This document shows positions 46,494 through 64,000 of a stretch of DNA of 64,000 nucleotides, in pieces. Each line of letters starts with the position of its first letter. The stretch's first letter is position 1. The notes beneath the pieces are model-generated. The model was not told where the DNA came from. It ran no database searches and saw only the letters and a list, made by a program, of their open reading frames with translations. The position numbers and the translations under genes were made by a program. The stretch is from Oscillibacter valericigenes Sjm18-20 (GTDB lineage Bacteria; Bacillota; Clostridia; Oscillospirales; Oscillospiraceae). The stretch is from positions 1,302,001-1,366,000 of the forward strand of contig AP012044.1 of the NCBI GenBank assembly GCA_000283575.1. The letters are read 5' to 3'.

Positions 46494-46606
46494 CAGGTTT
46501 TGCATGGTTTTCAGCACTTTCTCCCGTATACTTTGCAAATCGCCCCGGATATACTGTGAATGGTAAATTTTTGGCCATATACACTGAAAAGGGGCGTGCT
46601 TTAGAA

Positions 46607-48055
46607 ATGAAATTGAAGGATCTGCTTGCCGGTGTGGAGGTTCTGGAGCTTCACGCGGATGAAAATCTTGAGATAACCGGGGTCAGCTATGACTCCCGGA
46701 AGACTCAGACGGGCGACGTGTTCGTCGCCATCAGCGGCTATGCCATGGACGGCCATGCCTATATCGGCAAGGCGGAAGAGGCCGGCGCGGTGTGCGCCGT
46801 GTGTGAGAGGAAGCCGGAGACCGGCATACCCTATGTGCTGGTGAGGGAGTCCCGGCGGGCGCTGGCCATGCTGGGCGTCAACTGGTTTGGCCATCCGGCG
46901 GAGCACATGGTCATGACCGCCGTCACCGGAACCAACGGCAAGACCACCACGACCTATCTGCTGAAGGCCGTTTTGGAGCAGGAGGCGGGGGCAAAGGTGG
47001 GCCTCATCGGCACCAACCAGAACATGATCGGCTCAGAGGTCCTGCCTACGGAGCGGACCACGCCGGAGTGCTTTGAGCTGCAAAAGCTGTTCCGCCGGAT
47101 GCTGGACGCGGGCTGCACCCATGTGGTGATGGAGACCTCGTCCCACGCGCTGTACGAAGGCCGGGTTCACGGGATCCGATATGATGTGGGTATCTTCACG
47201 AATCTGACCCAGGACCATCTGGATTTTCACAAGACCATGGAGAACTACTGCGATGCAAAGGCCATTCTCTTTCAAAACTGCAACGTGGGGGTTTACAATG
47301 CCGACGACCCCTGGTCAAAGCGGCTGATGCGGGACACGTCCTGCGAAAAATTTTCTTATGGGGAGAAGGCGGAAGCCGATCTGCGGGCGGAGAAGATTGA
47401 GCTTGGCGCGGACCATGTGGCCTTCACCGCCGTAACAAAAAGTGAGCGAGTAAAAATTTGGGTGGGCATTCCGGGCGGATTTATGGTATATAATACGCTG
47501 GATGTTTTAGCGGCGGCGCTGAAGCTCGGGGTGCCGCTTGAAAAGAGCGCCGACGCCCTGCGCCGGGTTCCCCACGTGAAGGGCCGGGTGGAGGTGGTCC
47601 CCACGCCGGGCCGGAATTATACGGTCCTGATCGACTACGCCCACAGCCCCGACGGGCTGAAAAACGTACTGACCACGGTGAAGGGCTTCGCCAAGGGCCG
47701 CACCGTGGCGGTGTTTGGCTGCGGCGGGGACCGGGATCGGACGAAGCGGCCCAAAATGGGAAAAATTGCGACGGAAATTGCGGACTATGTAGTGGTGACT
47801 TCCGACAATCCCCGGACGGAGAAGCCCGCCGTCATCATCGATGAGATTCTGGCCGGTATGGAGGGAACTCCTACACCCTACGCCGTGGTGACGGACCGGA
47901 TTGAGGCCATCCACTACGCCATGGACAACGCCCAAAAGGACGACGTGATTGTCCTTTGCGGCAAGGGTCACGAGACCTATCAGGAAGTGAACCACAAGAA
48001 GCATCATATGGATGAACGGGAGATCGTGGCGGAGTATCTGGGCGAGGCGCGCTGA
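46607..48055 (+). CDS. murE: UDP-MurNAc-tripeptide synthetase MurE
   Basis: It adds the third stem-peptide residue to UDP-MurNAc-Ala-Glu (482 aa). Mur-ligase motifs: TGTNGKTTTTYLLKAVLE (ATP), METSSHALYEGRVHGIRYDVGIFTNLTQDHLDFHKTMENY and CDAKAILF. TSDNPRTEKP carries the DNPR tetrad characteristic of meso-diaminopimelate-adding enzymes, so DAP-type peptidoglycan is inferred. Starts at ATG 46607 with AAAAGGGG somewhat far (about 12 nt) upstream. No murF follows. Confidence 0.94.
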   Translation: MKLKDLLAGVEVLELHADENLEITGVSYDSRKTQTGDVFVAISGYAMDGHAYIGKAEEAGAVCAVCERKPETGIPYVLVRESRRALAMLGVNWFGHPAEHMVMTAVTGTNGKTTTTYLLKAVLEQEAGAKVGLIGTNQNMIGSEVLPTERTTPECFELQKLFRRMLDAGCTHVVMETSSHALYEGRVHGIRYDVGIFTNLTQDHLDFHKTMENYCDAKAILFQNCNVGVYNADDPWSKRLMRDTSCEKFSYGEKAEADLRAEKIELGADHVAFTAVTKSERVKIWVGIPGGFMVYNTLDVLAAALKLGVPLEKSADALRRVPHVKGRVEVVPTPGRNYTVLIDYAHSPDGLKNVLTTVKGFAKGRTVAVFGCGGDRDRTKRPKMGKIATEIADYVVVTSDNPRTEKPAVIIDEILAGMEGTPTPYAVVTDRIEAIHYAMDNAQKDDVIVLCGKGHETYQEVNHKKHHMDEREIVAEYLGEAR

Positions 48056-48187
48056 CGTGCCTGCCGAGGACCGGCATCGGGTTTGGCGCAGAGCCGATTC
48101 CAATTTGTATAATAAAAAGTAAAAAAGCTTTTTTGTATAGAGACTGCATAGGGAAAGGCCCGGCCGCGCCGGGTAAGAGGAAAACAT

Positions 48188-49174
48188 ATGGACATTTCAA
48201 ATTGGCTGGCGCTGGCCGTCGGCTTTCTTCTGACGCTTCTGATCGGCAGGTTCCTGATCCCGGAGCTTCGGAAGCTGAAAGCGGGACAGGAGATTCGCGC
48301 CGACGGACCCAGGTGGCACGCCGGAAAGGCCGGAACCCCCACTATGGGGGGAATTATGTTCATCATCGGCACGGGCGCGACGGTGGTGGTTCTGGGCTGG
48401 CGGCAGATGCTGGCGGGGGAGTTCGCCCATCTGTACGTATACCTGTTCGCCCTGGTGTTTGGGCTGATCGGATTCGTGGATGACTACCGCAAGGTGCGCC
48501 AGCACCAGAACGAGGGATTGACCGCCAAGCAGAAATTCGTTTTGCAGCTGGCTGCGGCAGTGGTGTTTTTGTGCCTGATGCGGTATGAGAAGCTGCTGAC
48601 CAATGAGCTTTATATTCCGTTTGCAAATGTGACCCTGACGGTCAACTGGATCGTCTATCTGATTTTTGCTGCTTTCGTGATTGTGGGCTGCGTCAACGCG
48701 GTGAACCTGACGGACGGGATCGACGGACTGGCCACCGGCGTCACTTTTGTGGTCATGGTATTCTTTACGGTGATGACCACGGCTGTTTACGGTGCGGGCC
48801 TGAGCCTGTTTCCATCGGCACTGGCTGGGGGACTTGCGGCGTTTTTTGTCTATAACCATCACCCGGCCAGAGTCTTTATGGGCGATACCGGGAGCCTGTT
48901 TCTAGGCGGCGCGGTGGCGGCGATGGCGTTTGCGCTGGATATGCCGCTGGTACTGATTTTGGTTGGTATCATATACATCGCCGAAACGGTGTCGGATATT
49001 ATCCAGGTTGGATATTTCAAAGCGACCCACGGCAAGCGCTTTTTTAAAATGGCCCCGCTGCACCACCATCTGGAGCTGTGCGGCTGGAGCGAGGCAAAAC
49101 TGGTGACGGTGTTCTCACTGATCACATTGGCGGGCTGTGCGCTGGCATGGCTGGGCATACAGGGAATAATTTAA
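48188..49174 (+). CDS. mraY: Phospho-N-acetylmuramoyl-pentapeptide-transferase MraY
   Basis: The integral membrane enzyme making lipid I, 328 aa with ten helices. The opening differs from classical forms but keeps DGPRWHAGKAGTPTMGGIMF, GLIGFVDDYRKV (catalytic Asp pair), VNLTDGIDGLATG, FMGDTGSLFLGG and the HHHLELCGWSE motif. It follows murE across 132 nt that include a possible -10 (TATAAT at 48108) and a palindrome AAAAAAGCTTTTTT at 48121. The ATG follows AAGAGGAAAAC. Confidence 0.95.
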   Translation: MDISNWLALAVGFLLTLLIGRFLIPELRKLKAGQEIRADGPRWHAGKAGTPTMGGIMFIIGTGATVVVLGWRQMLAGEFAHLYVYLFALVFGLIGFVDDYRKVRQHQNEGLTAKQKFVLQLAAAVVFLCLMRYEKLLTNELYIPFANVTLTVNWIVYLIFAAFVIVGCVNAVNLTDGIDGLATGVTFVVMVFFTVMTTAVYGAGLSLFPSALAGGLAAFFVYNHHPARVFMGDTGSLFLGGAVAAMAFALDMPLVLILVGIIYIAETVSDIIQVGYFKATHGKRFFKMAPLHHHLELCGWSEAKLVTVFSLITLAGCALAWLGIQGII

Positions 49175-49260
49175 CGCGCTTCGCGCGCGGACGAAGAGGT
49201 CCGCTTTACCCGTAAAACACGAAAATAAGATTTAGCACACTCCGTGCGCGGATAAAAAGG
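49170..49260 (+). repeat. Two 30-bp imperfect direct repeats ahead of ftsW
   Basis: The 30-bp unit at 49170-49199 recurs at 49231-49260 with 22 identical positions. All eight differences are transitions. They fill the gap between mraY and ftsW; no function is assigned. Confidence 0.6.
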
Positions 49261-49271
49261 GGGAGACGCCG

Positions 49272-50543
49272 GTGGTCCGGGAACGTAAACCGAATAACAG
49301 TCGATCCCGCGGCCCCCGCCGGGACGGGGACCGGGGATACAGCTCTGTCCGCCGTCCCTCAGTCAGCCGGGAGGAACTGCTGGCCCGCCAGCGGGCAAAG
49401 GAGGAGCGGATGCTCCGGGAACAGGAGAGCCGGGAGCTGGCAAGGGGGCCCATCGACCTGCCGTTCTGTCTGCTTGTAATGGTGTTGACCATCATCGGCC
49501 TCATCATGCTCTTTTCCGCCAGCTTCCCCCGGGCCTATTACGAGGACAGCAACCCCACCTACTACGTGGCGCGGCAGGGCGTGTTTGCCATCATGGGTGT
49601 GGCGGCCATGGCATTTGTGGGAAAGATCAATTACCAGCGGTTCCGGGGGCTGGCAAAGCCGCTTTTATATCTGACCATCGTGCTGTTGTTTCTGGTCATC
49701 ATCCCTCACAACCCTCTTGCCCTGACCAGTAACAATGCCACCCGCTGGTTGGGAATTCGGGGAACGGCGTTGCGGTTCCAGCCCTCTGAGATTGCAAAGC
49801 TGGCGGTGGTGATTTACTTTTCCGATACCGTTTCCAGAAAAAAAGAACGGATGCAGACCTTCCGGTATGGGATTGCGCCGTACGCCATCATTTTGTGTGG
49901 GATCGCGGTACTGATGATGATGGAGCCGCATCTGTCCGGGACGCTGCTGATTCTGGGCGCAGGCGCCGCCATCATGCTGGTGGGCGGTATCAGTTGGGCA
50001 TGGGTGGTCGGCGCTCTGGGCGTGGCGGCGGCAGGGCTGTATGTCGTTGTCGGGATTGTGGGGTACGGCGCCTCCCGAATTGCCATGTGGCACGATCCGT
50101 TTATCGATGCGCGGGGGGACGGTTATCAACTGGCCCAGAGCCTCCTGTCCATCGGCTCGGGCGGACTTTTGGGTGTGGGCCTGGGGAAGAGCCGCCAGAA
50201 ATTCATGTATCTGCCCGAGGAGCACAACGACTTCGTCTTTTCCATCGTTTGTGAGGAGCTGGGACTCATCGGCGCGGCCATTATCATGCTTTTATTCGTA
50301 GCGCTGATCCTCCGGGGGTACTGGATTGCCCTCCACGCGCGGGATCGGTTCGGGAGCCTGCTGGTGGTGGGCGTTACCACGTTGCTGGCCTTCCAGACTT
50401 TTTTGAACATGGGCGTTGTGACGGGTCTGCTGCCCACAACGGGAGTCTCCCTGCCGTTTTTCAGCTATGGCGGCACGGCACTGACAATCCAGCTTTTTGA
50501 AATGGGGATTGTTTTGAGCGTGTCGCGGCAGATGAAGATTTAA
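49272..50543 (+). CDS. ftsW: FtsW/SpoVE lipid II polymerase (SEDS family)
   Basis: A SEDS glycosyltransferase of 423 residues with ten membrane helices. A long basic, disordered head (about residues 1-55, rich in Arg and Ser) is unusual in length. The core has FSASFPRAYYEDSNPTYYVARQ, NNATRWLGIRGTALRFQPSEIAKLAVVIYF, GLGKSRQKFMYLPEEHNDFVFSIVCEELG and LPTTGVSLPFFSYGGTALTIQL, including the conserved PEEHNDF and GGT motifs. GTG start after GGGGGAG. FtsW versus SpoVE cannot be told apart by sequence here. Confidence 0.93.
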   Translation: MVRERKPNNSRSRGPRRDGDRGYSSVRRPSVSREELLARQRAKEERMLREQESRELARGPIDLPFCLLVMVLTIIGLIMLFSASFPRAYYEDSNPTYYVARQGVFAIMGVAAMAFVGKINYQRFRGLAKPLLYLTIVLLFLVIIPHNPLALTSNNATRWLGIRGTALRFQPSEIAKLAVVIYFSDTVSRKKERMQTFRYGIAPYAIILCGIAVLMMMEPHLSGTLLILGAGAAIMLVGGISWAWVVGALGVAAAGLYVVVGIVGYGASRIAMWHDPFIDARGDGYQLAQSLLSIGSGGLLGVGLGKSRQKFMYLPEEHNDFVFSIVCEELGLIGAAIIMLLFVALILRGYWIALHARDRFGSLLVVGVTTLLAFQTFLNMGVVTGLLPTTGVSLPFFSYGGTALTIQLFEMGIVLSVSRQMKI

Positions 50544-50577
50544 CCGGAAAATACGAAGGCTTTAAGGAAGTGTTGGT

Positions 50578-51708
50578 ATGGGAAAAGCGCCGAGGCGGGT
50601 CATTTTTACCTGCGGGGGGACGGCGGGGCATGTAAACCCCGCCATCGCGCTGGCGCAGCTGATGCTGGAGCGGGAGCCGAAAACGGAGATTTTGTTTGTG
50701 GGTGCGGAGAGAGGCCTCGAAAAGGACCTGATCCCCAAGGCGGGCTACGCATTTCGGACCGTCCATATTTCCAGTTTCCACCGCTCCATGAAACCGGCGG
50801 AGATCCGACATAACCTGATCTCCGTGGGTAACTATTTCCGCGCGCCCCATGAGGCGCGGCGGATTCTGAGGGAATTTGGACCGGAGGTGGTAATCGGCAC
50901 CGGCGGATATGCCAGCTTCCCCATGGTGAAAGCCGCGGCGAAAGCGGGCATTCCAACTGCCATCCACGAGTCCAACATGGTGCCGGGGCTGACCACCCGG
51001 CTGCTGGAGCCCTTTGCGGACCGCATCATGGTGGGGTTTGAGGATTGCCGGGGGCAGTATCGGGACCCTGACCGGGTGGTGGTCACGGGGACGCCGGTGC
51101 GCGGGGACTTTTTTACCCGGACGAAAGCGCAGGCCCGGCAAGAATTGGGTATTCGGGATGAGCGGCCTCTGATCGTGTCCTTCTGGGGCTCTCTGGGCGC
51201 GGCGGGAATGAACCGTCAGATGGCGGATTTTCTTGCGTTGGAGGCGGCGAAGGAGCCCTTTCGCCATATCCACGGCGCGGGTGGCGGCTATGAAGCTCTG
51301 CTGAGCGCGCTGAGAGAGCGGGGCGTGGACCTGACGGCGCATCCGGCGCTGGAGGTGCGGCCCTATATCTACGACATGGACCGGGTGCTTCGGGCGGCGG
51401 ATCTGGTGCTGTGCCGGGCCGGGGCGTCCACCATCAGCGAGCTGACGGCCCTGGGTGTCCCGGCGCTGATCGTGCCGTCTCCCTACGTGACCAACAACCA
51501 CCAGGAGAAAAATGCCCGGGTACTGGAGAAAGCGGGCGGGGCCTGCGTGATGCTGGAAAGTGAGTCCAACGGACCGGCGCTGTTCCAGAAGAGCTGCGAC
51601 ATTCTCCACAGCGCGGCACGGCGGGCGAGCATGTCCGCCTCTATGGAGGCACTGGGCATTCCGGACGCTACGGAGCGCATCTACCGGACGGTATTGGAGT
51701 TGCTGTAA
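50578..51708 (+). CDS. murG: Lipid II-forming GlcNAc transferase MurG
   Basis: It transfers GlcNAc to lipid I on the inner membrane face (376 aa). The first G-loop is TCGGTAGHVNPAIALAQLM. The second is GTGGYASFPMVKAAAKAGIPTAIHESN, and the donor site has RAGASTISELTALGVPALIVPSPYVTNNHQEKNA. ATG follows AAGGAAGTGTTGGT. Last intact gene of the cluster before the interrupted murA. Confidence 0.96.
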   Translation: MGKAPRRVIFTCGGTAGHVNPAIALAQLMLEREPKTEILFVGAERGLEKDLIPKAGYAFRTVHISSFHRSMKPAEIRHNLISVGNYFRAPHEARRILREFGPEVVIGTGGYASFPMVKAAAKAGIPTAIHESNMVPGLTTRLLEPFADRIMVGFEDCRGQYRDPDRVVVTGTPVRGDFFTRTKAQARQELGIRDERPLIVSFWGSLGAAGMNRQMADFLALEAAKEPFRHIHGAGGGYEALLSALRERGVDLTAHPALEVRPYIYDMDRVLRAADLVLCRAGASTISELTALGVPALIVPSPYVTNNHQEKNARVLEKAGGACVMLESESNGPALFQKSCDILHSAARRASMSASMEALGIPDATERIYRTVLELL

Positions 51709-51773: not shown

Positions 51774-52229
51774 ATGAGTCAGATCATCGTGAAGGGCGGG
51801 CGCGCCCTTTCCGGCTCCATAGCGGTGCAGGGCGCGAAGAACAGCGCGCTGCCGATTTTGGCGGCTACGATCCTGAATCGGGGGGAGACGGTGCTGCGGG
51901 GCTGTCCCCGGCTGCGGGATGTGGACGCATCCATCCGCATCCTCCGGCATCTTGGCTGCGAGGCCAGATGGGAGGGAGACGCGCTGGTCGTAAATACGGC
52001 GGGCATGAACCGCAGCGATATTTCTGATGCGCTGATGCGGGAAATGCGTTCTTCCGCGATTTTCCTGGGGGCTATCCTGGCCCGCTGCGGCCGGGCGGAC
52101 CTGAGCTATCCCGGCGGGTGTGAATTTCTGTGGTGCCAAAAGCAGTACAATACACCACACTATACCCTGCCCACAGACCAATTTTACAAACGAATCTATA
52201 AAAACGCACTGTTATTCAGACGGGTCTGA
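51774..52229 (+). pseudogene. murA: UDP-GlcNAc enolpyruvyl transferase MurA, truncated by element insertion
   Basis: The native N-terminal part reads MSQIIVKGGRALSGSIAVQGAKNSALPILAATILN through SSAIFLGAILARCGRADLSYPGGCE. It therefore runs through the catalytic-cysteine loop PGGC and stops matching MurA one codon later, about position 52124. The remaining 34 codons to the TGA at 52229 are element sequence. Around 300 C-terminal residues are absent, so this copy cannot be functional. Firmicutes often carry a second murA, which would be needed here. ATG at 51774 follows GGAGGG by 8 nt. Confidence 0.85.
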
Positions 52230-52246
52230 ACAATGGTGCGCTTTTT
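52205..52246 (+). terminator. Terminator at the left end of the element
   Basis: CGCAC...GTGCG closes a stem of about 15 bp containing TTCAGA/TCTGAA around a CGGG loop, with one mismatch and two G-T pairs, followed by CTTTTTC. It would insulate the element from murG-murA read-through; the fused murA frame ends inside it. Confidence 0.8.
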
Positions 52247-52248
52247 CA

Positions 52249-52268
52249 TGTCCACAGACTAGTGGACA
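52249..52268. promoter_or_regulatory. TGTCCAC palindrome upstream of parA
   Basis: TGTCCAC and GTGGACA are perfect inverted arms around AGACTA, 20 bp in all, just after the terminator and about 20 bp before the parA -35. CCACAGAC also occurs at 52171. It could be a ParB site or an operator; no match to consensus parS. Confidence 0.5.
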
Positions 52269-52287
52269 ATAGAGGGGAAGAAACAGC

Positions 52288-52315
52288 TTGCTGATGCAGG
52301 CTGATTTTTTATGCT
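52288..52315 (+). promoter_or_regulatory. Promoter of the element parA operon
   Basis: TTGCTG (52288-52293) and TATGCT (52310-52315) are 16 bp apart, 27 nt before parA. Confidence 0.55.
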
Positions 52316-52341
52316 CAAATTAAAAGCAAAGGAGTGGAGTT

Positions 52342-53157
52342 ATGCAGACAATCGCAATCGTCAATCAGAAGGGCGGCGTGGGCAAAAGTACCACTGCCGT
52401 CAATCTGGGAGCCGGCCTAACCCGGCAGGGCAAGAAGGTTCTGCTGATCGACGCAGACGGTCAGGCGAACCTGACCGAAATGCTGGGCTGGCAGCAACCG
52501 GACGAGCTGTCGCCCACGCTGGCAACCCTGCTGGAGCAAATCATCGCCGACCGGCCCATTTCTCCACAGGACGGTATCCTGCATCACAAGGAGGGCATGG
52601 ATCTAATGCCCGCCAACATTGAACTGTCCGGCTTGGAGGTGTCCTTGGTAAACACCATGAGCCGCGAAACGGTTCTGCGCACTTATCTCAGCGAGGTCAA
52701 ACGCAGCTACGACTACATTTTAATAGATTGCAGCCCTTCGCTGGGAATGCTGACACTCAACGCCCTCACAGCGGCGGATAAGGTCATCATTCCGGTGCAG
52801 TCCCACTACCTGCCCGTCAAGGGCTTAGAGCAGCTTCTTAAAACCGTCAGTAAGGTGCAGCGCCAACTCAACGGCAACCTCCAGATCTCCGGTATTCTTA
52901 TAACAATGGTGGAGGGCCGCACCAATTTCTCCAAGGACATCAGCCAGCTGGTGCGGCAGGCATATGGCAGGGACATCCATGTGTTTGAAACGGAAATCCC
53001 CCGCGGTATCAAGGCGGCGGAGATGAGTGCCGAGGGTGCCAGCATTTTTGCCTTTGAGCCGCGCAGCGCCGTGGCATCTGCCTACGAACAGTTTACAAAG
53101 GAGGTCTTGCAGCATGAAAAGTGCCGCGAAAAACATTCAGATTGCCAGCTACGATGA
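52342..53157 (+). CDS. parA: ParA/Soj-family ATPase of the element
   Basis: A 271-residue deviant Walker ATPase: IVNQKGGVGKSTTAVNLGAGL (deviant Walker A), LLIDADGQANLTEML and YDYILIDCSPSLGMLTLNALTAADKVIIPVQSHYL (Walker B). GRTNFSKDISQLVRQAYG and ETEIPRGIKAAEMSAEGASIF mark the ICE/plasmid partition type. It should pair with the overlapping parB to stabilise the excised circular element. Overlaps parB by 44 nt. ATG follows AAAGGAGTGGAGTT. Confidence 0.93.
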   Translation: MQTIAIVNQKGGVGKSTTAVNLGAGLTRQGKKVLLIDADGQANLTEMLGWQQPDELSPTLATLLEQIIADRPISPQDGILHHKEGMDLMPANIELSGLEVSLVNTMSRETVLRTYLSEVKRSYDYILIDCSPSLGMLTLNALTAADKVIIPVQSHYLPVKGLEQLLKTVSKVQRQLNGNLQISGILITMVEGRTNFSKDISQLVRQAYGRDIHVFETEIPRGIKAAEMSAEGASIFAFEPRSAVASAYEQFTKEVLQHEKCREKHSDCQLR

Positions 53158-54055
53158 TTTATTTAAGACGGACGCCGAGCGTCTGGCAGACACGCAGGAG
53201 CGAATTCAGGATTTGCCGCTTGACAAGCTGATTCCATTCCCCAATCACCCGTTTAAGGTACTGGACGATGAAAAGATGCAGGAAACCGTGGACAGCATCA
53301 AGGAATACGGCGTATTGGTGCCAATCCTGGTGCGCCCAAAAAACGACGGCACTTATGAAATTGTGTCCGGCCACCGCCGTCATCATGCCAGTGTGCTGGC
53401 AGGCAAAACGGACATTCCGGCCATCGTGCGAGACATGGATGATGATGCCGCCATTCTGGTCATGGTGGATTCAAATTTACAGCGAGAAACCATCCTGCCG
53501 TCAGAGAAAGCCTTTGCCTATAAAATGAAGCTGGATGCAATGAAGCGGCAGGCTGGTAGACCCTCAAAAGAAAATCCGTGCCAAATTGGCACGGATTTAA
53601 TTGGGCAGCGTTCGGATCAAATCATGGCAAAAGAATTAAACGAAAGCGCCAGAACAATCCAACGCTATATCCGCCTGACTAACCTTAATCCAGAACTTTT
53701 AAACCGTGTGGACAACAAAACTATGGCGTTCAATTCAGCCGTGGAGGTGTCCTACCTCTCCGAAAGTGAGCAAACCATGTTGTGCGAGGCCATTGAGCGG
53801 CAAGAAGCCACGCCCAATCTCAATCAGGCACAGCGGCTCAAAAAGTACAGCATGGACGGCAAACTGGACGAAAATGTGATGGACGCCATCATGACCGAGG
53901 AAAAGCCGCTGGACAATAAGCTGGTGCTGAAAGATGAACTGCTGTCACCGTATTTTCCGAAAAACTACACGCCGATGCAGAAGCAGCAGACGATTTTAAA
54001 ACTGCTGGCAGACTGGCACAAGCGGCAAATGCGCCAGCAGGAAGCGGAGCGGTGA
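53114..54055 (+). CDS. parB: ParB-like partition protein of the element
   Basis: A 313-residue ParB/Srx-fold protein: DLPLDKLIPFPNHPFKVLDDEKMQETVDSIKEYGVLVPILVRP, with the CTP-binding/ParB box IVSGHRRHHASVLAGKTDIPAIVRD. An HTH region follows (GQRSDQIMAKELNESARTIQRYIRLTNLNPELLNRVD). The ATG at 53114 is 9 nt after GGAGG and lies inside the end of parA. Together with ParA it forms a partition module. Confidence 0.92.
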   Translation: MKSAAKNIQIASYDDLFKTDAERLADTQERIQDLPLDKLIPFPNHPFKVLDDEKMQETVDSIKEYGVLVPILVRPKNDGTYEIVSGHRRHHASVLAGKTDIPAIVRDMDDDAAILVMVDSNLQRETILPSEKAFAYKMKLDAMKRQAGRPSKENPCQIGTDLIGQRSDQIMAKELNESARTIQRYIRLTNLNPELLNRVDNKTMAFNSAVEVSYLSESEQTMLCEAIERQEATPNLNQAQRLKKYSMDGKLDENVMDAIMTEEKPLDNKLVLKDELLSPYFPKNYTPMQKQQTILKLLADWHKRQMRQQEAER

Positions 54056-54163
54056 CGGCAATGGGCGTTTGGAGGCATGGGGCCTTCACGCCTTTTCGCC
54101 GTGGGTTTTCCCCTTTACAATCCCCTTTCCTACTCAGCCGAAAAAGAAGGAATAGCTTACTTA

Positions 54164-54193
54164 GCCGAAAAGAAAAATATTTTTTTCTTCGGC
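54164..54193. other. Near-perfect 30-bp AT-centred palindrome
   Basis: The two 15-bp arms (GCCGAAAAGAAAAAT and its partner) match at 13 positions with no loop. It lies 28 nt before the next gene. A shorter direct copy of GCCGAAAAAGAA is at 54137. Function is unknown; an operator or cruciform is possible. Confidence 0.5.
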
Positions 54194-54220
54194 ACAGTGA
54201 GCGGAACAGGAGCGTTTACC

Positions 54221-54814
54221 ATGGATGAAGAAAAGCGAATGATCGAAAATTACGAGGTTCGGCACAGCGTGTTTCTGGGCAACCGGGAAATCGTGTTCGC
54301 CATTGACAAGGACGCGCCCATACCGTATCTGGTCAGCGACTGTACCGACCGGGGCGGGTTCGGACTGCTGCGTTACGACAACGCCATTGCCGGCGACGAC
54401 TATCTGGAACAGATGCAGGAGTTCACCAAGCGCATTGACCGGCAGATTCAGCAGGTGCGGGACGAGCGGACACAGCGCGGCATTGACCCCGTGCCCCTAA
54501 CCAGCGAACATTGCGTGTCCGGTGGCATGAACGAAAATCTGGAGGGCAAGGTGATCGTCATCAAAGCATCTTCCCTTCGGCCTGAGTATGCTACGCCGGA
54601 CCATCAGTTGATGCTTGCAGATGGCGGCAACGGATGCCACCCAGATGCCCGTGGCCGCGCGGTGTTTTGCGTCAATCTCTACACCGGCAAGCGTGGCCGC
54701 TGGGAGCGATACGATGTGCAGGGCGTGGCGGATATGAACAAATTGCCCCAGTGGGCACAGGATGCAGCCCGAAAGCTGCAACAGAAAAAATCGCGGGAGG
54801 AGCTGGAGCGATGA
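54221..54814 (+). CDS. Conserved element protein of unknown function
   Basis: A 197-residue soluble protein of mixed composition beginning MDEEKRMIENYEVRHSVFLGNREIVFAID and containing GGFGLLRYDNAIAGDDYLEQMQEFTKRID. A region rich in charged and Cys/His residues follows (HQLMLADGGNGCHPDARGRAVFC). I do not recognise the family, though proteins in this position are common in Tn1549-like elements. The ATG at 54221 follows AGGAG by 8 nt; the frame is open further upstream through the palindrome without a better site. Confidence 0.75.
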   Translation: MDEEKRMIENYEVRHSVFLGNREIVFAIDKDAPIPYLVSDCTDRGGFGLLRYDNAIAGDDYLEQMQEFTKRIDRQIQQVRDERTQRGIDPVPLTSEHCVSGGMNENLEGKVIVIKASSLRPEYATPDHQLMLADGGNGCHPDARGRAVFCVNLYTGKRGRWERYDVQGVADMNKLPQWAQDAARKLQQKKSREELER

Positions 54815-55095
54815 TTGGCGAAAAAGTAGAGGGCTACACAATTATCGAGAGCACGGTCATCGGCAACGCCAAATTCGTGGTGGGCAAAAACCCGCAAAAC
54901 CCCATTGTCCCCTACGTTACATGGCAGGCTAATATGAAGAACGACCCCCATTCGTATTTCTGGGGCCATTACTACGGTGATAAGCTCACCGCGCTGGCAG
55001 ATTACGGCGACCGCATTTCGCAGGAAGCCCAGTATCTCAAGAGTTTTCAGGAGAAAAAGGCAAAAGAAAAACCGGCTGTTGAGCCGGAGCGTTAG
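54811..55095 (+). CDS. Small conserved element protein
   Basis: A 94-residue protein: EKVEGYTIIESTVIGNAKFVVGKNPQNPIVPYVTWQ, then SYFWGHYYGDKLTALADYGDRI and a charged, Lys/Glu-rich tail. Its start ATG overlaps the previous stop (ATGA) with GGGAGGAG upstream, indicating coupled translation. Function unknown. It is followed 11 nt later by the giant helicase frame. Confidence 0.78.
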   Translation: MIGEKVEGYTIIESTVIGNAKFVVGKNPQNPIVPYVTWQANMKNDPHSYFWGHYYGDKLTALADYGDRISQEAQYLKSFQEKKAKEKPAVEPER

Positions 55096-55106
55096 GAGGT
55101 ATCCAT

Positions 55107-58100
55107 TTGGCAAGTAAATATCAGCTTATTACAGAGCTATATAACCAGACGCTTTTGCGTGTCACCGGCAGCCATGAGCGATGGACTGGCTTTCTCCGAG
55201 CTGCCTGCTATAACTATAAATGCTCCTTTGACGAGCAAATTTTAATCTACGCCCAGCACCCCAACGCCACCGCCGTGCTGGAACTGGATAAGTGGAACAA
55301 TCAGTTTGGCCGCTGGGTCAATAAGGGTGCTACAGGCATCGCAATCCTCGACGACCAGCGCGGTAAAGGGCGGCTTAAATACTACTTTGATGTGGCGGAC
55401 ACCCATGAAACACTGCGTTCACGGCCTGTTCCCATCTGGGAGATGGACGCCGCGTTCACCGACCGGGCGATTGAAACGCTGGAAAACACTTTTGGTAAAT
55501 TGGCCGAAAAGAAAACACTGCCGGAGGCCATTTTATCCGCCAGCCACAACGCCGTGGCGGACAATCTCCCGGACTACCTGCGGGATCTGCGGGACTGCCG
55601 GGAAGGAAGTCTGCTGGAAGAACTGGACGACCTGAATGTGGAGGTGTCCTACCGTCGTGCTCTGGAATCCAGCATCGCGTATATGCTGATGATACGGCTG
55701 GGTATTCCGGCAGACGCTTATCTTCTGCCCGAAGATTTTACAGCCGTCTATGACTTCAACACCACGGCTACCATCAACGCCCTGGGCATCGCCACCAGCG
55801 ACATCGCGGAGATGGGGATGCGGGAAATCAGTCGGACAGTGATGCAGGCGCGTCGGGAACAGTTTTTTGCAAAGGACGGCAAAATTGCTTATGATACGGA
55901 AAAGGAAACAAACGACGAAAGGAGCGACGATGATGGAGATCACTTACAGGACGCAGGAGGGCTTTCAGATTCCGAACCTGCTGTTGCCGCAGACAGAGGA
56001 AACGCATTTGGGCAAGTACGCGGAACTGCGCCGGCAGTACCTGATGAAGCACCGCAGGGTACTGTATACGAACCTGAAAACCAGCTGCAAGTTGACGGAA
56101 CATCTGGCGGAGATCGAGGAGAGCGCCAAGACGATGGTGGAGCAGACCGTGCGCCAGATGGCCAAGACCGAGGACGTGACGGAAGAACTGAAGGCATCCG
56201 ATCCGATGCGTTGGACGGGGTTGATGAACAACTTCCGGCATTGCGCGGAGGAAATGGTGCTGAACGACCTGATCTACAGTTAATTTCAGAGGAACCAGCA
56301 GAGGCAGGAAGTGATGAAAATGCACTTCCCGCCTTTTTAGATGCCTACCTTATGGAAGCCATTGTGCTGGACGAGGGCGGCAGAACAGTCAAGCGGCAGG
56401 AGATTTTCAATTACTTCCAAGCGCATAGGGATTATCAGGAGCGCGCGGAGTTTCTCGAAAAAGCCTATAATGACACTTTCACAGAAATTCTGGTAGACGG
56501 TACGCGGGTTGGCTACCATAAACAGGGCGACGGACTTCTGATGTGGGAGGGCAGCTACCTATCCCGCACTTCAGAGTCCGTTTTTTCATGGGGTGTGGTC
56601 ACGGAAATGACCGAAAACCTCATGGAGCGCGGCGAGTACAAAATCAAGCTGGGACTGCAAAACGCGCCGGTGATGGCGGAGCAGATGACCCTGTTCGGCA
56701 TGGGCGAGGCGATTCCGGTCTATCAGCCGGATGAGAGCCAGCCGCCTCTGTTCCCCGTACAGGAGGTACCGCAGGCCGTCATTGATAAGACCCTTTATAC
56801 GGCGGGCAACGAACCCGGCAGCCCCTTCCGTGTTGCAGCCTTCTATATGCGGGAACGTCCCGAAGTAGAAAATGTGGCGTTCCTGCGTCGGGAGTTCGGC
56901 ACGGAAAATGGGCGCGGCATCGAGCATGAGGGCCGCAAATATGCGGTTTGGTTCATGGAGGACGGCATCCACCTTGCCTGTGGTAACAGCGTTGGCAGCG
57001 GATATGACCGCACAACGGTCACATGGGAACAGGCGTCGGCGCGGATTCTGAAACTCCTGAACGCCGGCATCTATCTTTCTCCAGCAGAGCTGGCGCAGGC
57101 GCAGGACAAGGCGCTCCGCAACATGGCGGATGCGCTGCTTTTGACCGCGCGCGACCTTTCCGATGAGGGACGTGCTCAGGGTTATTTTCCGCTGACCCGC
57201 GAGATCTACGACAAACTGACCGGCTTCCCGGACTGCATCAACAATATGGTGGAGCAGGCGCAGGGCGACGCATTCCTCAATGGTCTGGCGCAGGAGTATC
57301 ATACCTTTTTGGACGCCTATGCAAAAGACCGCACGATCATGCGCTGGCGGCTTTCAGACTATAATACGCACCGGATCGGCATCATGCTGGACGGCGTGGA
57401 ATATCCCAAGCGCGGCTTTACCGCCCAGCCGGATTTCCTGCGGCAGTGCAAGATGTTCATCACGCAGGACGAGATTGACCAACACTTTCTGGGCGGTAAC
57501 GCTGACAGTAGGCTGGAAGTGTATTCCCACTTCTGTTATCCCCACACGCCGGAGGAAAACCAGAAGTTTATCAAGGGGTTTTATGGTGAATACAGCGGCG
57601 GAGCCTGTGACAGCTACGATTACACGAAAACGCGGAAAGGACTTCTGTATCAGAGGGAATACGAGTGGAAGAAATACGACTCCGTTCAGCTCACTATCCC
57701 GCAAGTGGTCAAGGAGTACGAGCGCCTGATTGCCCAGAAGCAATTTCCCAGTGAGGACGCTCTTTTCAAAATCCCAGAATATGAGGCGGAGCAGCTTGCG
57801 CGGAGCGTGTATTTCGGCTTCGCTGGCCTGCCTTCCTCTTTTCCCCGCCCTTACGAAGAAGGCGCAGATTATTACAAGGCCGTGCCTGCGATTCAGGTGC
57901 AGCTTACGTCCCCTGATAAGGTGCGGGAGATATTGGATAATCTCACCGCCGCGCTGGACGGTATGGACGAAAATGACCGTTACTATGACAGTGTTCAAAA
58001 CGCAAAAAAACTGCTTTCCGAATATACCAATGGCACCTTCAGCCTGTTCAACCACCGGCACGACGGTTTGCGGCTTCCGCCTGCTGCGGAAAGCCGACAG

Positions 58101-58355
58101 CAGGAAGTGCAGACGGTTCAACCTTTTATTGACCACTATTATGTGGTGGATGATTTGCAGGTGCGCGGCCCTCTGGCGGTGACGGACTATGATGATCTCA
58201 ACACAGCGCTGACAGCTTACTCTGCACTTCCAACAGATAAAATCAAGGCATTCGGCGTACAGAACACCAATCATTTGCCCGGAACCTTTGACTTTCTGCA
58301 ATGCAGAGACGGCGTAGACACGCCGGTTCTTGACTATCAGCGGATGGAGAGCTAG
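55107..58355 (+). CDS. N-terminal part of giant element helicase/methylase protein (ends at in-frame TAG)
   Basis: 1,082 codons, forming the N-terminal third of a Tn1549-type giant protein. The opening ERWTGFLRAACYNYKCSFDEQILIYAQHPNATAV followed by WNNQFGRWVNKGATGIAIL resembles ArdC-like N-terminal domains. A low-complexity Asp/Gly/Arg-rich linker occupies about residues 276-392, exactly where tnpV is overprinted. The rest is a mixed alpha/beta region ending LPGTFDFLQCRDGVDTPVLDYQRMES. The TAG at 58353-58355 stands where a Trp codon (TGG) is expected, and the same frame stays open for 1,800 further codons. The start is TTG at 55107 after TTAGGAGG. Confidence 0.88.
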   Translation: MASKYQLITELYNQTLLRVTGSHERWTGFLRAACYNYKCSFDEQILIYAQHPNATAVLELDKWNNQFGRWVNKGATGIAILDDQRGKGRLKYYFDVADTHETLRSRPVPIWEMDAAFTDRAIETLENTFGKLAEKKTLPEAILSASHNAVADNLPDYLRDLRDCREGSLLEELDDLNVEVSYRRALESSIAYMLMIRLGIPADAYLLPEDFTAVYDFNTTATINALGIATSDIAEMGMREISRTVMQARREQFFAKDGKIAYDTEKETNDERSDDDGDHLQDAGGLSDSEPAVAADRGNAFGQVRGTAPAVPDEAPQGTVYEPENQLQVDGTSGGDRGERQDDGGADRAPDGQDRGRDGRTEGIRSDALDGVDEQLPALRGGNGAERPDLQLISEEPAEAGSDENALPAFLDAYLMEAIVLDEGGRTVKRQEIFNYFQAHRDYQERAEFLEKAYNDTFTEILVDGTRVGYHKQGDGLLMWEGSYLSRTSESVFSWGVVTEMTENLMERGEYKIKLGLQNAPVMAEQMTLFGMGEAIPVYQPDESQPPLFPVQEVPQAVIDKTLYTAGNEPGSPFRVAAFYMRERPEVENVAFLRREFGTENGRGIEHEGRKYAVWFMEDGIHLACGNSVGSGYDRTTVTWEQASARILKLLNAGIYLSPAELAQAQDKALRNMADALLLTARDLSDEGRAQGYFPLTREIYDKLTGFPDCINNMVEQAQGDAFLNGLAQEYHTFLDAYAKDRTIMRWRLSDYNTHRIGIMLDGVEYPKRGFTAQPDFLRQCKMFITQDEIDQHFLGGNADSRLEVYSHFCYPHTPEENQKFIKGFYGEYSGGACDSYDYTKTRKGLLYQREYEWKKYDSVQLTIPQVVKEYERLIAQKQFPSEDALFKIPEYEAEQLARSVYFGFAGLPSSFPRPYEEGADYYKAVPAIQVQLTSPDKVREILDNLTAALDGMDENDRYYDSVQNAKKLLSEYTNGTFSLFNHRHDGLRLPPAAESRQQEVQTVQPFIDHYYVVDDLQVRGPLAVTDYDDLNTALTAYSALPTDKIKAFGVQNTNHLPGTFDFLQCRDGVDTPVLDYQRMES
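55933..56283 (+). CDS. tnpV: TnpV-like transposon protein, overprinted within the helicase gene
   Basis: A 116-residue protein in the +1 frame relative to the surrounding giant gene: MEITYRTQEGFQIPNLLLPQ, LGKYAELRRQYLMKHRRVLYTNLKTSCKLTEHLAEIEESAKTMVEQTVRQMAK and a C-terminal HCAEEMVLNDLIYS. This is the layout of the TnpV family (PF14198) of clostridial transposons. It has its own AAAGGAG 8 nt before the ATG at 55933 (a second ATG at 55930 is 5 nt away). The overlapped host frame encodes only low-complexity linker, so both frames can be real. Confidence 0.75.
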   Translation: MEITYRTQEGFQIPNLLLPQTEETHLGKYAELRRQYLMKHRRVLYTNLKTSCKLTEHLAEIEESAKTMVEQTVRQMAKTEDVTEELKASDPMRWTGLMNNFRHCAEEMVLNDLIYS

Positions 58356-58376
58356 GATAACGTCGAAATCCACGCC

Positions 58377-61300
58377 GTGGTGAGCGCAGTCGAGGCGTCG
58401 CTGGGAAAGGAACAGACTTCCGAAACCCCGCCCGCGCTGGCTCCCTACAATTTAGCGGCGGAGGAAGCCTACCGCCACGCAAAAGAAGAGCACCCCGACC
58501 ATCTGGTAGCCGTCCACATGGGTGATTACTACGAGCTGTACGGGGATGACGCCGCCACCGCAGCGGAAATTCTGCACAGCAAAACGCTCATACGCAGCTT
58601 GTCTACCGGTGAGGAAACCACCACCGGCTTTCTTGCGGAGGCATGGGCGGCAAATTTGAAAGCCCTCTGGCGTGCCGGTCGTAATGTGCTGCTGATCGAC
58701 CAAGGCGACAACGGTCAGTTTTATCCGGTCAAGGAGCGCCTTGCCAGCGACTACATCCCCATTCACGCACAGATTCAGATTGAGGGCCGACAGTTTGAGG
58801 TGGAGAGCGTCAGCTTTGAGCAGGATAAGGTTTCTCTCCGCGACATCACTTTTCAGAATGGCACCGGATTTCCCATCTCCCGCATCGAACCCATTGATTT
58901 TGTTCGTTCCTACATTGACGAGCCGGAACCGGGGGCGGACGAGCCAATCATAGAGTCGGCAGAACAGCCCGCGCAAAAAACTCGTTTACCACCTGTGCCG
59001 AAGAAAAAAGAAGGCGTGGACGCCGCCATGCCACTCTATCAGGACGGCATCAATTACCGCATCACAGACGATAACCTTGGTGCAGGTACTCCAAGCGAAC
59101 GCTATGCCAACAACGTGGCGGCCATCCGGCTGCTGGAAAAGATGGACAAAGAAGGTTACCCGGCCACGGCGGAGGAACAGGAAGTCCTCGCCAAATATGT
59201 GGGCTGGGGTGGTCTGGCAGATTGCTTCGACCCAAAGGACAGCCGATACGAAGAACTGAAATCGCTGCTGTCTGAAGCCGAATATGCCTCCGCCCGCGAA
59301 TCCACGCTGACAGCATTCTATACGCCGCCTGTGGTCATTCGCTCCATCTATCAGGCACTGACGGACATGGGTTTTGCGCAGGGCAATATTCTGGAGCCCG
59401 CCTGCGGCACCGGCAATTTCCTTGGCCTTCTGCCGGGGAGTATGGCGGGCAGCAAGCTCTACGGCGTGGAGCTGGACGATGTTTCCGGCAGAATTGCCCG
59501 CCACCTCTACCAACGCTCCAGTATTGCCGTGCAGGGCTATGAAAAAACCGGTTTCCAAGATAACTTTTTCGACGTGGCTGTTGGTAACGTGCCATTTGGA
59601 CAATTTAAGGTGCCAGACCGGCGCTATGACCGGCTAAATCTGCCTATCCACGAATACTTCATCGCCAAGACACTGGATAAGGTACGTCCGGGCGGCGTCA
59701 TCGCCTTTGTAACATCCAGCTACACCATGGACAAAAAAACAGCCACCACCCGAAAATATATTGCACAGCGGGCGGAGCTGCTGGGAGCCATCCGTCTGCC
59801 CAACAACACTTTCAAGGCAGCGGCAGGCACCGAGGTGGTTTCGGACATCCTGTTCCTGCAAAAGCGTGACCGCATGGTAGACATCGAGCCGGAATGGGTG
59901 CATTTAGCAACAGACGATAACGGAATCCAGATGAACAGCTATTTCATCGACCATCCTGATATGGTGTTGGGCGAGATGAAGATGGTTTCGGGGCCTTACG
60001 GCCCGGAGCCGACCTGTGCGCCCTACCCGGAGCAGGATTTGGGAACGCTGCTGCAAAATGCGATTCAAAACATTCACGCCGAAATCAGCGACTATGACCG
60101 CAACGACGAGCTGGACGGCGAGGACAAATCCATCGAGGCCGACCCGTCCGTCCGCAATTTCTCTTATACCCTTGTGGACAATCAGATTTACTACCGGGAA
60201 AACAGCCGCATGAATCCGGTGGAGGTGTCCAAAACCGCCGAAAGCCGGATTCGCGGCATGATTTCCCTGCGGGACTGCGTTCGTACCCTGTTGGAGTACC
60301 AGACCGAGGACTATCCCGAAGAAGAAATCAAAGCGCAGCAAGCCATGTTGAACATTCTCTATGACCGCTTTACCAAGGATTACGGCCTCATTAATTCGCG
60401 AGGAAACTCCATCGCTTTCTCAGAGGACAGTTCGTATTTCCTGCTGTGTTCCCTGGAGGTGGTCAATGAAAACGGCGAACTGCTCCGCAAGGCAGACCTG
60501 TTCACCAAACGTACCATCCGCTGCCACAAGCCCGCCGAGAAGGTGGATACCGCCGTGGAAGCACTGGCGCTGTCCATCGGGGAAAAGGCGCGGGTGGATA
60601 TGGACTACATGGGGCAGCTCACCGGCAAAACCGAGGAACAGCTTTTCGCAGATCTCACCGGCGTGGCTTTTCTCAACCCTGATTACGTCGAGGGCATGAA
60701 TGACAAATATCTGCCTGCCGACGAATATCTCTCTGGCAATGTCCGCCAAAAGCTGACGCAGGCAAAGGAATTGGCGGCAAATGACCCGCAGTATCAGATT
60801 AACGCCGATGCCCTGGCGCAGGTGCAGCCGGTAGACCTGACTGCCAGTGAGATTTCCGTGCGGCTGGGTGCGACATGGCTGAACCCGGACTATTATCGTC
60901 AGTTCACCTTTGAAACGCTGGGCACACCCCGCAGCGCCCAATGGAGTATCAAGGTGCATTATTCCAAGCTCACCGGCGAGTGGCGGATTGAAGGCAAAAG
61001 CAAGGATTACGGCAATGTCAAGGCGTTTAATACCTACGGTACCAAGCGCATCAACGCCTATGAGATCATCGAGGACAGCTTGAATCTGAAGGATGTCCGT
61101 ATTTTCAATTATGTTTATGATGCCGATGGGAATAAAACGGCGGTGCTGAACAAAAAGGAAACCGCTATCGCCCAGAGCAAACAGAAGCTTTTGAAGGAAG
61201 CCTTTTCCGAATGGCTTTGGAAGAACCCGGACAGGCGGGAAACCATCTGCAAAGCCTATAATGTCCTCTTTAACTCCAACCGGCCCCGCGAGTACGACGG

Positions 61301-63836: not shown

Positions 63837-64000
63837 TGGGCTATCAGGAGAGTTTGGTGTACATTCGCCCGCAGCGGATGTTTGATGTCATGGTGCGAAA
63901 ATGCGAGCAGGCGTTCAGGAATGGCTATTATGCCGCGCTGGGCGCGGAGCCGGAGTCTGTCATCACGCTCAAGCAGCCGCTGGAGGGAATGCCGCCCGGC
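63836..64000 (+). CDS. Element gene, truncated at the window end
   Basis: The start ATG overlaps the preceding TAA by one base (TAATG) and has AAAAGGAG upstream. The visible 55 residues read MGYQESLVYIRPQRMFDVMV, then RKCEQAFRNGYYAALGAEPE and a Pro/Gly end. No family is recognised; it belongs to the same operon. Confidence 0.65.
   Translation, partial: MGYQESLVYIRPQRMFDVMVRKCEQAFRNGYYAALGAEPESVITLKQPLEGMPPG

Follow-up and report, generated by a model that had tools for sequence, protein, structure and literature searches.

The interrupted murA gene and the inserted element

The window, that is, the whole stretch of 64,000 nucleotides that was analysed, covers bases 1302001-1366000 of a 4.41-Mb contig (C1) in a source genome of 4.47 Mb and two contigs. 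A run of host cell-wall and division genes on the plus strand (46556-51708) was assigned by NCBIfam to murE, mraY, an ftsW-like gene and murG; murE, mraY and murG scored above their cut-offs, and the ftsW model gave 343 bits against a cut-off of 337.5, the spoVE model scoring higher on the same gene while staying below its own cut-off. The murA gene that follows starts at 51774, and its translation is an intact MurA through YPGGC and foreign from there on, which bears out the earlier note, where MurA similarity was said to end at the PGGC loop. The genuine 5' part (51774-52114, plus strand) consists of the 113 codons that precede the first Gly codon of PGGC, together with the GG of that codon. 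In a profile search this piece covered positions 2-115 of PF00275, and in alignments with MurA chains it extends to residue 115 of the solved structure 1uae, which corresponds to Cys 116 in the present murA. Translation continues into a fused ORF (51774-52229, plus strand) with 34 element codons after 52124 and a stop at 52229, as previously described. The terminator proposed at its end is in line with a terminator-like hairpin just inside the element (52200-52246, plus strand; fold of -18.7 kcal/mol, z -4.87), which a simple consensus terminator scan missed, reporting 52284-52303 instead.

The remainder of murA was indeed found on the same 4.41-Mb contig. A profile search returned four PF00275 matches in the source genome, one of which, at 1490832, spans profile positions 109-417; the 309 missing MurA residues begin at C1:1490844, and the two GG cores lie 136,731 bp apart. 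The right core and the murA 3' part are situated 13 bp past the stop codon of a gene for a 531-aa large serine recombinase (LSR), and the gene after the murA 3' part is one that we take for ftsQ, judged by its place and look only. The genome contains 28 serine-recombinase (PF00239) matches; since only one of them, the LSR, falls within the murA-to-murA interval, this interval was read as one element, within which nested elements with other recombinases may nevertheless occur.

The left 11.9 kb of the element lie in the window (52115-64000, plus strand), the rest extending beyond it to C1:1490844. Mechanical listing gave 122 element ORFs of at least 90 aa, 28 of which were scanned with Pfam; five of these gave no family match at the thresholds applied. 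The first element gene encodes a ParA-like ATPase (52342-53157, plus strand; PF13614, 199 bits), followed on the same strand by a ParB-like protein (53027-54055 as the frame was listed, the true start being probably downstream; PF02195, 76 bits), a 1082-aa ORF for which neither Pfam nor NCBIfam found a family (55107-58355) and a 1819-aa methyltransferase/SNF2-helicase-like ORF (58377-63836; PF00176, PF00271 and others). Pfam then places, in this order, a MobA/VirD2 relaxase, a thioester-domain protein with SpaA repeats, VirD4 and VirB4. VirD4 belongs to the CD1115 family and VirB4 to the CD1110 family, both above the NCBIfam cut-off, and the relaxase is above the cut-off of the Pfam Relaxase model, the NCBIfam relaxase models remaining below theirs. 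These Tn1549/CTn-type transfer genes, located near the left end, agree with the earlier description of a Tn1549-like element and are those by which ICEs (integrative and conjugative elements) of this type are recognized. Rightward of VirB4 come an NlpC/P60 protein, an IS110 transposase, a CobW/ArsP protein, ZnuA, ABC exporters and MATE proteins, then a periplasmic-binding protein, an SLH protein, an MFS protein, an N-acetylmuramoyl-alanine amidase, BacA and a PcsB-like M23 peptidase, and the LSR is the last gene at the right end. It may be observed in passing that the element which breaks murA itself carries cell-wall genes, identified by Pfam: BacA (L010:8256-9086), the amidase (L010:4354-4923) and the M23 peptidase (L010:11531-12739).

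The attachment site and its use by related recombinases

The LSR contains the Resolvase, Recombinase and Zn ribbon domains (PF00239, PF07508 and PF13408), all above cut-off. An initial family search with this protein (300 genomes, E <= 1e-60) recovered the query copy only. A scan of genome contigs yielded two relatives, one in the Oscillibacter sp. MAG G710 (L022, 61% identity) and one in the Clostridia MAG G413 (L023, 41%), and the elements of both end at the murA loop. An order-level search of 345 genomes (four with an LSR match, the source genome included) added G541 and G598, and a class-level search of 391 genomes at E <= 1e-85 (17 with a match, the source genome again among them) added G948 and G1014. 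Six elements are thus placed at murA, namely the present one and those of G710, G413, G541, G948 and G1014, the other five LSRs being 39-61% identical to the present one. In a tree of 22 LSRs, a single supported clade (100/99) has eight members, and in six of the eight the murA 3' part follows the LSR directly, at the same codon; as for the other two, the contig of G598 ends 272 bp past the LSR, without murA, and the 3.3-kb locus of G1020 contains no murA. Outside the clade, murA was found within about 1.5 kb of the LSR in none of 13 cases (TndX left out), nor was it beside the single weak viral LSR relative. Searches of viral contigs gave no relative with query P0003, one 21% relative without a murA match with query A1, and no match to the left-junction pattern; all 600 phage and 368 plasmid record matches were below 60% identity (25-30% among the matches listed), and plasmids searched with the left-end DNA gave no match.

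The crossover could be placed to the base. The core is the GG at 52113-52114, within a GGCGG common to the right end (attL core, 52113-52117, plus strand) and defined by the shared ends and by the centre of a dyad. In all six pairs of ends, the GG of the first Gly codon is the sole dinucleotide common to both, and the flanks rejoined at this GG read YPGGCE (6/6). The left arm of the element attP (52115-52139, plus strand) mirrors the right arm at 17 of 25 positions; the corresponding scores are 17 in G710, 16 in G413, 13 in G541, and 18 in both G948 and G1014. At other offsets (-9 to +12) the dyad score never exceeded 11, so that the dyad of G541, at 13, is a weak one, and in 20,000 shuffles the score at GG was reached in at most 0.22% of cases for G541 and at most 0.01% for the other five. 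The attB dyads were weaker, at 8-13. These six pairs are not six independent cases, as the ends and arms of G948 and G1014 are identical and amount to one; both ends lie on one contig in three pairs (the present element, G948 and G1014) and on separate contigs in G710, G413 and G541. A central dinucleotide common to attL and attR and a dyad-symmetric attP, the hallmarks of an LSR attachment site, were both found.

Because the core is GG, the TGT (Cys) read in the 5' half is element sequence imitating the murA Cys codon; the native one stayed attached to the 3' half. The junction, which the earlier note had set at 52124, one codon past the Cys, must be moved accordingly: the real crossover is about 10 bp upstream. 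We had considered a GA or AA core right after the Cys codon and rejected it. Such a core (GA) is allowed only by the present element and that of G710; it would require the native enzyme of G948 and G1014 to contain PGDC, the left sides of G413, G589 and G541 have no Cys codon, and the dyad test peaks at GG in all six.

The elements of G948 (about 11.2 kb) and G1014 (13.7 kb) are much smaller, and each is found whole, with both murA halves, on a single contig. Their murA halves are nearly identical (0 and 4 differences), while about 58 synonymous changes and 29 others separate their LSR genes and their interiors are unlike, an indication that the site has been used more than once. The present genome, genus g120 (G413 and G541) and genus g341 (G948 and G1014) represent three genera in three families, and divergent LSRs of one clade occur at the same gene and the same base. 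The earlier suggestion of a recognised att site rather than a random hit has therefore held up, with six elements in at least three genera, diverged LSRs and the same bases, five further elements ending at the same codon. To judge from this recurrence, murA looks like a dedicated LSR attachment site, used in at least three families of Clostridia-like bacteria.

Taken together, we consider it very probable that the locus holds a 136.7-kb ICE whose transfer module is of the Tn1549/CTn type and which the LSR at its right end integrated site-specifically into murA. From a mechanistic point of view, this LSR, which we infer to have made the junction, would join attP to the loop of murA, the crossover falling at the GG of the codon for the first Gly. 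The LSR family presumably came to read the DNA of the almost invariant active-site loop, and because it reads such DNA, a target would be available in most hosts of the group. An att site is defined to the base in a loop that is among the most conserved in bacterial metabolism, and the attP/attB pairs are offered for inserting DNA into anaerobes that are hard to engineer.

Host survival and the split murA genes of other lineages

A full-length, intact second murA (434 aa, with PGGC) is present at C1:1759576-1760880, its full PF00275 match lying at 1759597; the other full PF00275 match, at 3573351, is presumably AroA. The earlier note had held that the cell must rely on another murA unless the element excises often: such an intact copy exists, and that this copy suffices for survival is what we infer. 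The murA 3' part was matched in 393 of 400 genomes of the family, where, among the matches listed, other genomes have an intact murA and the present 3' frame is the shortest (333, the next being 399). Many genomes of the family show two matches, so a second MurA appears to be common there.

A second provision may be linked to the LSR gene itself, in which a perfect promoter motif (TTGACA-17-TATAAT, 12/12) lies on the coding strand, directed toward the murA 3' part (L011:4597-4625); a distance of 219 bp separates the end of its -10 box from the right core. In G710 (L022), whose LSR is 61% identical, a 12/12 motif occupies the same aligned place, with its first hexamer 238 bp before the core, and the sole two ATA codons among the 525 of this LSR sit in the -10 box. 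Given the protein and codon use, the probability of such a motif by chance was about 0.001 in G710 and 0.009 in the present element; five perfect motifs, the present one included, occurred in 204 kb on both strands. In the last 450 nt of the gene at 18 other loci, a set that includes G948 (L115), G1014 (L116) and G598, none reached at least 11/12 and three had 10/12. The outward promoter upstream of the core was absent from the other four of the six murA elements; the idea of a rescue promoter common to the entire family was rejected, as only two of the six have it. In the present element and in G710, this promoter may relieve polarity on the murA 3' part, and probably keeps it and the following division genes transcribed; in an excised circle, it would face the left end of the element itself. 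The att site explains why a cell-wall gene can harbour a conjugative element of 137 kb; with the second murA and the built-in promoter, it can now be tested whether an essential pathway is gated or buffered by mobile elements.

Different situations were encountered in the rumen genus g120 (five genomes, those searched being all draft assemblies in many contigs). The dcw-type murA is split there at the same GG, with its halves on separate contigs (L058, L060, L068, L069 and L108): its 3' half lies after the LSR in G413 and G541, and its 5' half is found apart in G413, G541 and G589. Motifs are kept and frames open in both halves, whose neighbours look chromosomal and vary from species to species. 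Upstream of the 3' half lie the LSR, an unnamed gene and nrdG- and nrdD-like genes, and downstream an ftsQ-like gene and ftsZ; the 5' half comes after ylxM/ffh-like genes, and the gene next to it is dnaJ-like in G413 and MMPL-like in G541 (ftsZ by NCBIfam, the others by eye). No ATG, GTG or TTG precedes the Cys in the 3' halves of G413 and G541. Between G413 and G589, 13 of the 19 bases after the core match, which suggests a shared ancestral split; alternatively, these arms may be alike because the recombinase reads them. For the same pair, the murA 5' half gave a dN/dS of about 0.21 at a dS of 0.60, against 0.09-0.23 in intact control pairs (n = 5) and about 0.07 in the more constrained neighbouring gene ylxM. 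We did not accept dN/dS as proof of a working split murA, considering both the value of ylxM and the possibility that the arms match through the recombinase.

In G1014 (98% complete), three PF00275 matches were found, all of them fragments, with no intact MurA. As a separate observation, the G1014 element holds a further murA start of 94 residues (L134; G1014:C26:13587-13877, minus strand), about 40% identical to the copy of the present genome and with 37 nonsynonymous differences in 94 codons from the 5' half of its own host, which suggests either accretion or a remnant of the murA of a former host.

The facts from g120 and G1014 fit a reversible rearrangement, just as they may reflect recent or independent insertions or draft-genome gaps. 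It is conceivable, if unlikely, that murA is a recombinase-gated gene in some lineages (g120, perhaps G1014), its halves being rejoinable only by recombination; excision or inversion would then act as the switch for entry into cell-wall synthesis, in the way that skin controls sigK. That the halves are in fact rejoined under some condition must be held quite unlikely. It would be in line with the motifs kept in both g120 halves, with the 5' half dN/dS inside the control range, with 3' halves that have no usual start codon, with the attP dyad persisting in G413 and G541, and with the lack of an intact MurA in G1014. Against it, no rejoined form was seen, the g120 genomes searched are all many-contig drafts, independent recent insertions would equally leave the halves intact, the present genome, G413, G541, G589, G710 and G948 all possess an intact second MurA, and the housekeeping-like genes beside the G413 and G541 ends would be lost on excision.

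A joint action of the two halves as a split enzyme is very unlikely. An in-frame TTG does occur 11 codons (present element) and nine codons (G710) before the loop, both have the promoter upstream of the murA 3' part, and the PGGC loop is mobile in known MurA structures; however, G413 and G541 have no such start before the Cys, and the present 5' half ends in foreign residues.

Comparison with known recombinase systems

Random insertion by an element of low specificity, conceivable in that some LSRs are multi-targeting (PMC10083194), is refuted by the recurrence of six elements at the same codon with LSRs down to 39% identity, and is hence highly improbable here. Misassembly or a chimeric contig, which had been named as the main alternative, is next to impossible, with both junctions inside one 4.41-Mb contig, the LSR at the expected element end, an identical junction in other assemblies and element ends symmetric at the base level.

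With regard to site-specific integration by the LSR, several known systems offer parallels. The skin element of sigK and the cyanobacterial fdxN element (XisF) are LSR-bearing DNA interrupting a needed gene, as is the case here, and XisF is the best NCBIfam match of the present LSR (65 bits against a cut-off of 375); programmed excision belongs to those systems and is conceivable, if unlikely, for the murA element. Tn5397 (TndX) and Tn4451 (TnpX) likewise have an LSR at one end of a conjugative or mobilizable element, and TndX is about 26% identical to the present LSR over 94% of its length. TndX and TnpX reportedly use a GA core, in contrast to the GG core found in murA. The present element resembles Tn1549 and the CTn-type ICEs of C. 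difficile in its CD1110-family VirB4, CD1115-family VirD4 and MobA/VirD2 relaxase, but measures 136.7 kb and has an LSR at its end, while Tn1549 is about 34 kb long and has a tyrosine integrase.

Conserved sites inside coding genes that serve several LSRs are already known: distantly related LSRs have been described as integrating at a single such site, in genes for prolyl isomerase and magnesium chelatase (Durrant et al., 2022; PMC10083194). The likeness lies in distant LSRs using one site inside a conserved gene; here the target is murA, at its catalytic loop, and an outward promoter lies inside the LSR gene of two elements. The comparison with murA extends to the main text of that study. 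That main text contains no mention of murA, and no report of murA as an LSR attachment site was found in the literature searches: it is not a term in PMC5357655, PMC13214566 or PMC8138268, where "Mura..." occurs in author names, and PMC8637289 has no whole-word murA. We believe that the new parts are murA as the target, the exact position of the core and the promoter embedded in the LSR gene. Beyond the murA clade, other LSRs (L118, L120 and L129) adjoin rpoN-like and phosphoglycerate-mutase-like genes, recognized by eye, in several genomes, and this neighbourhood is perhaps another shared LSR target.
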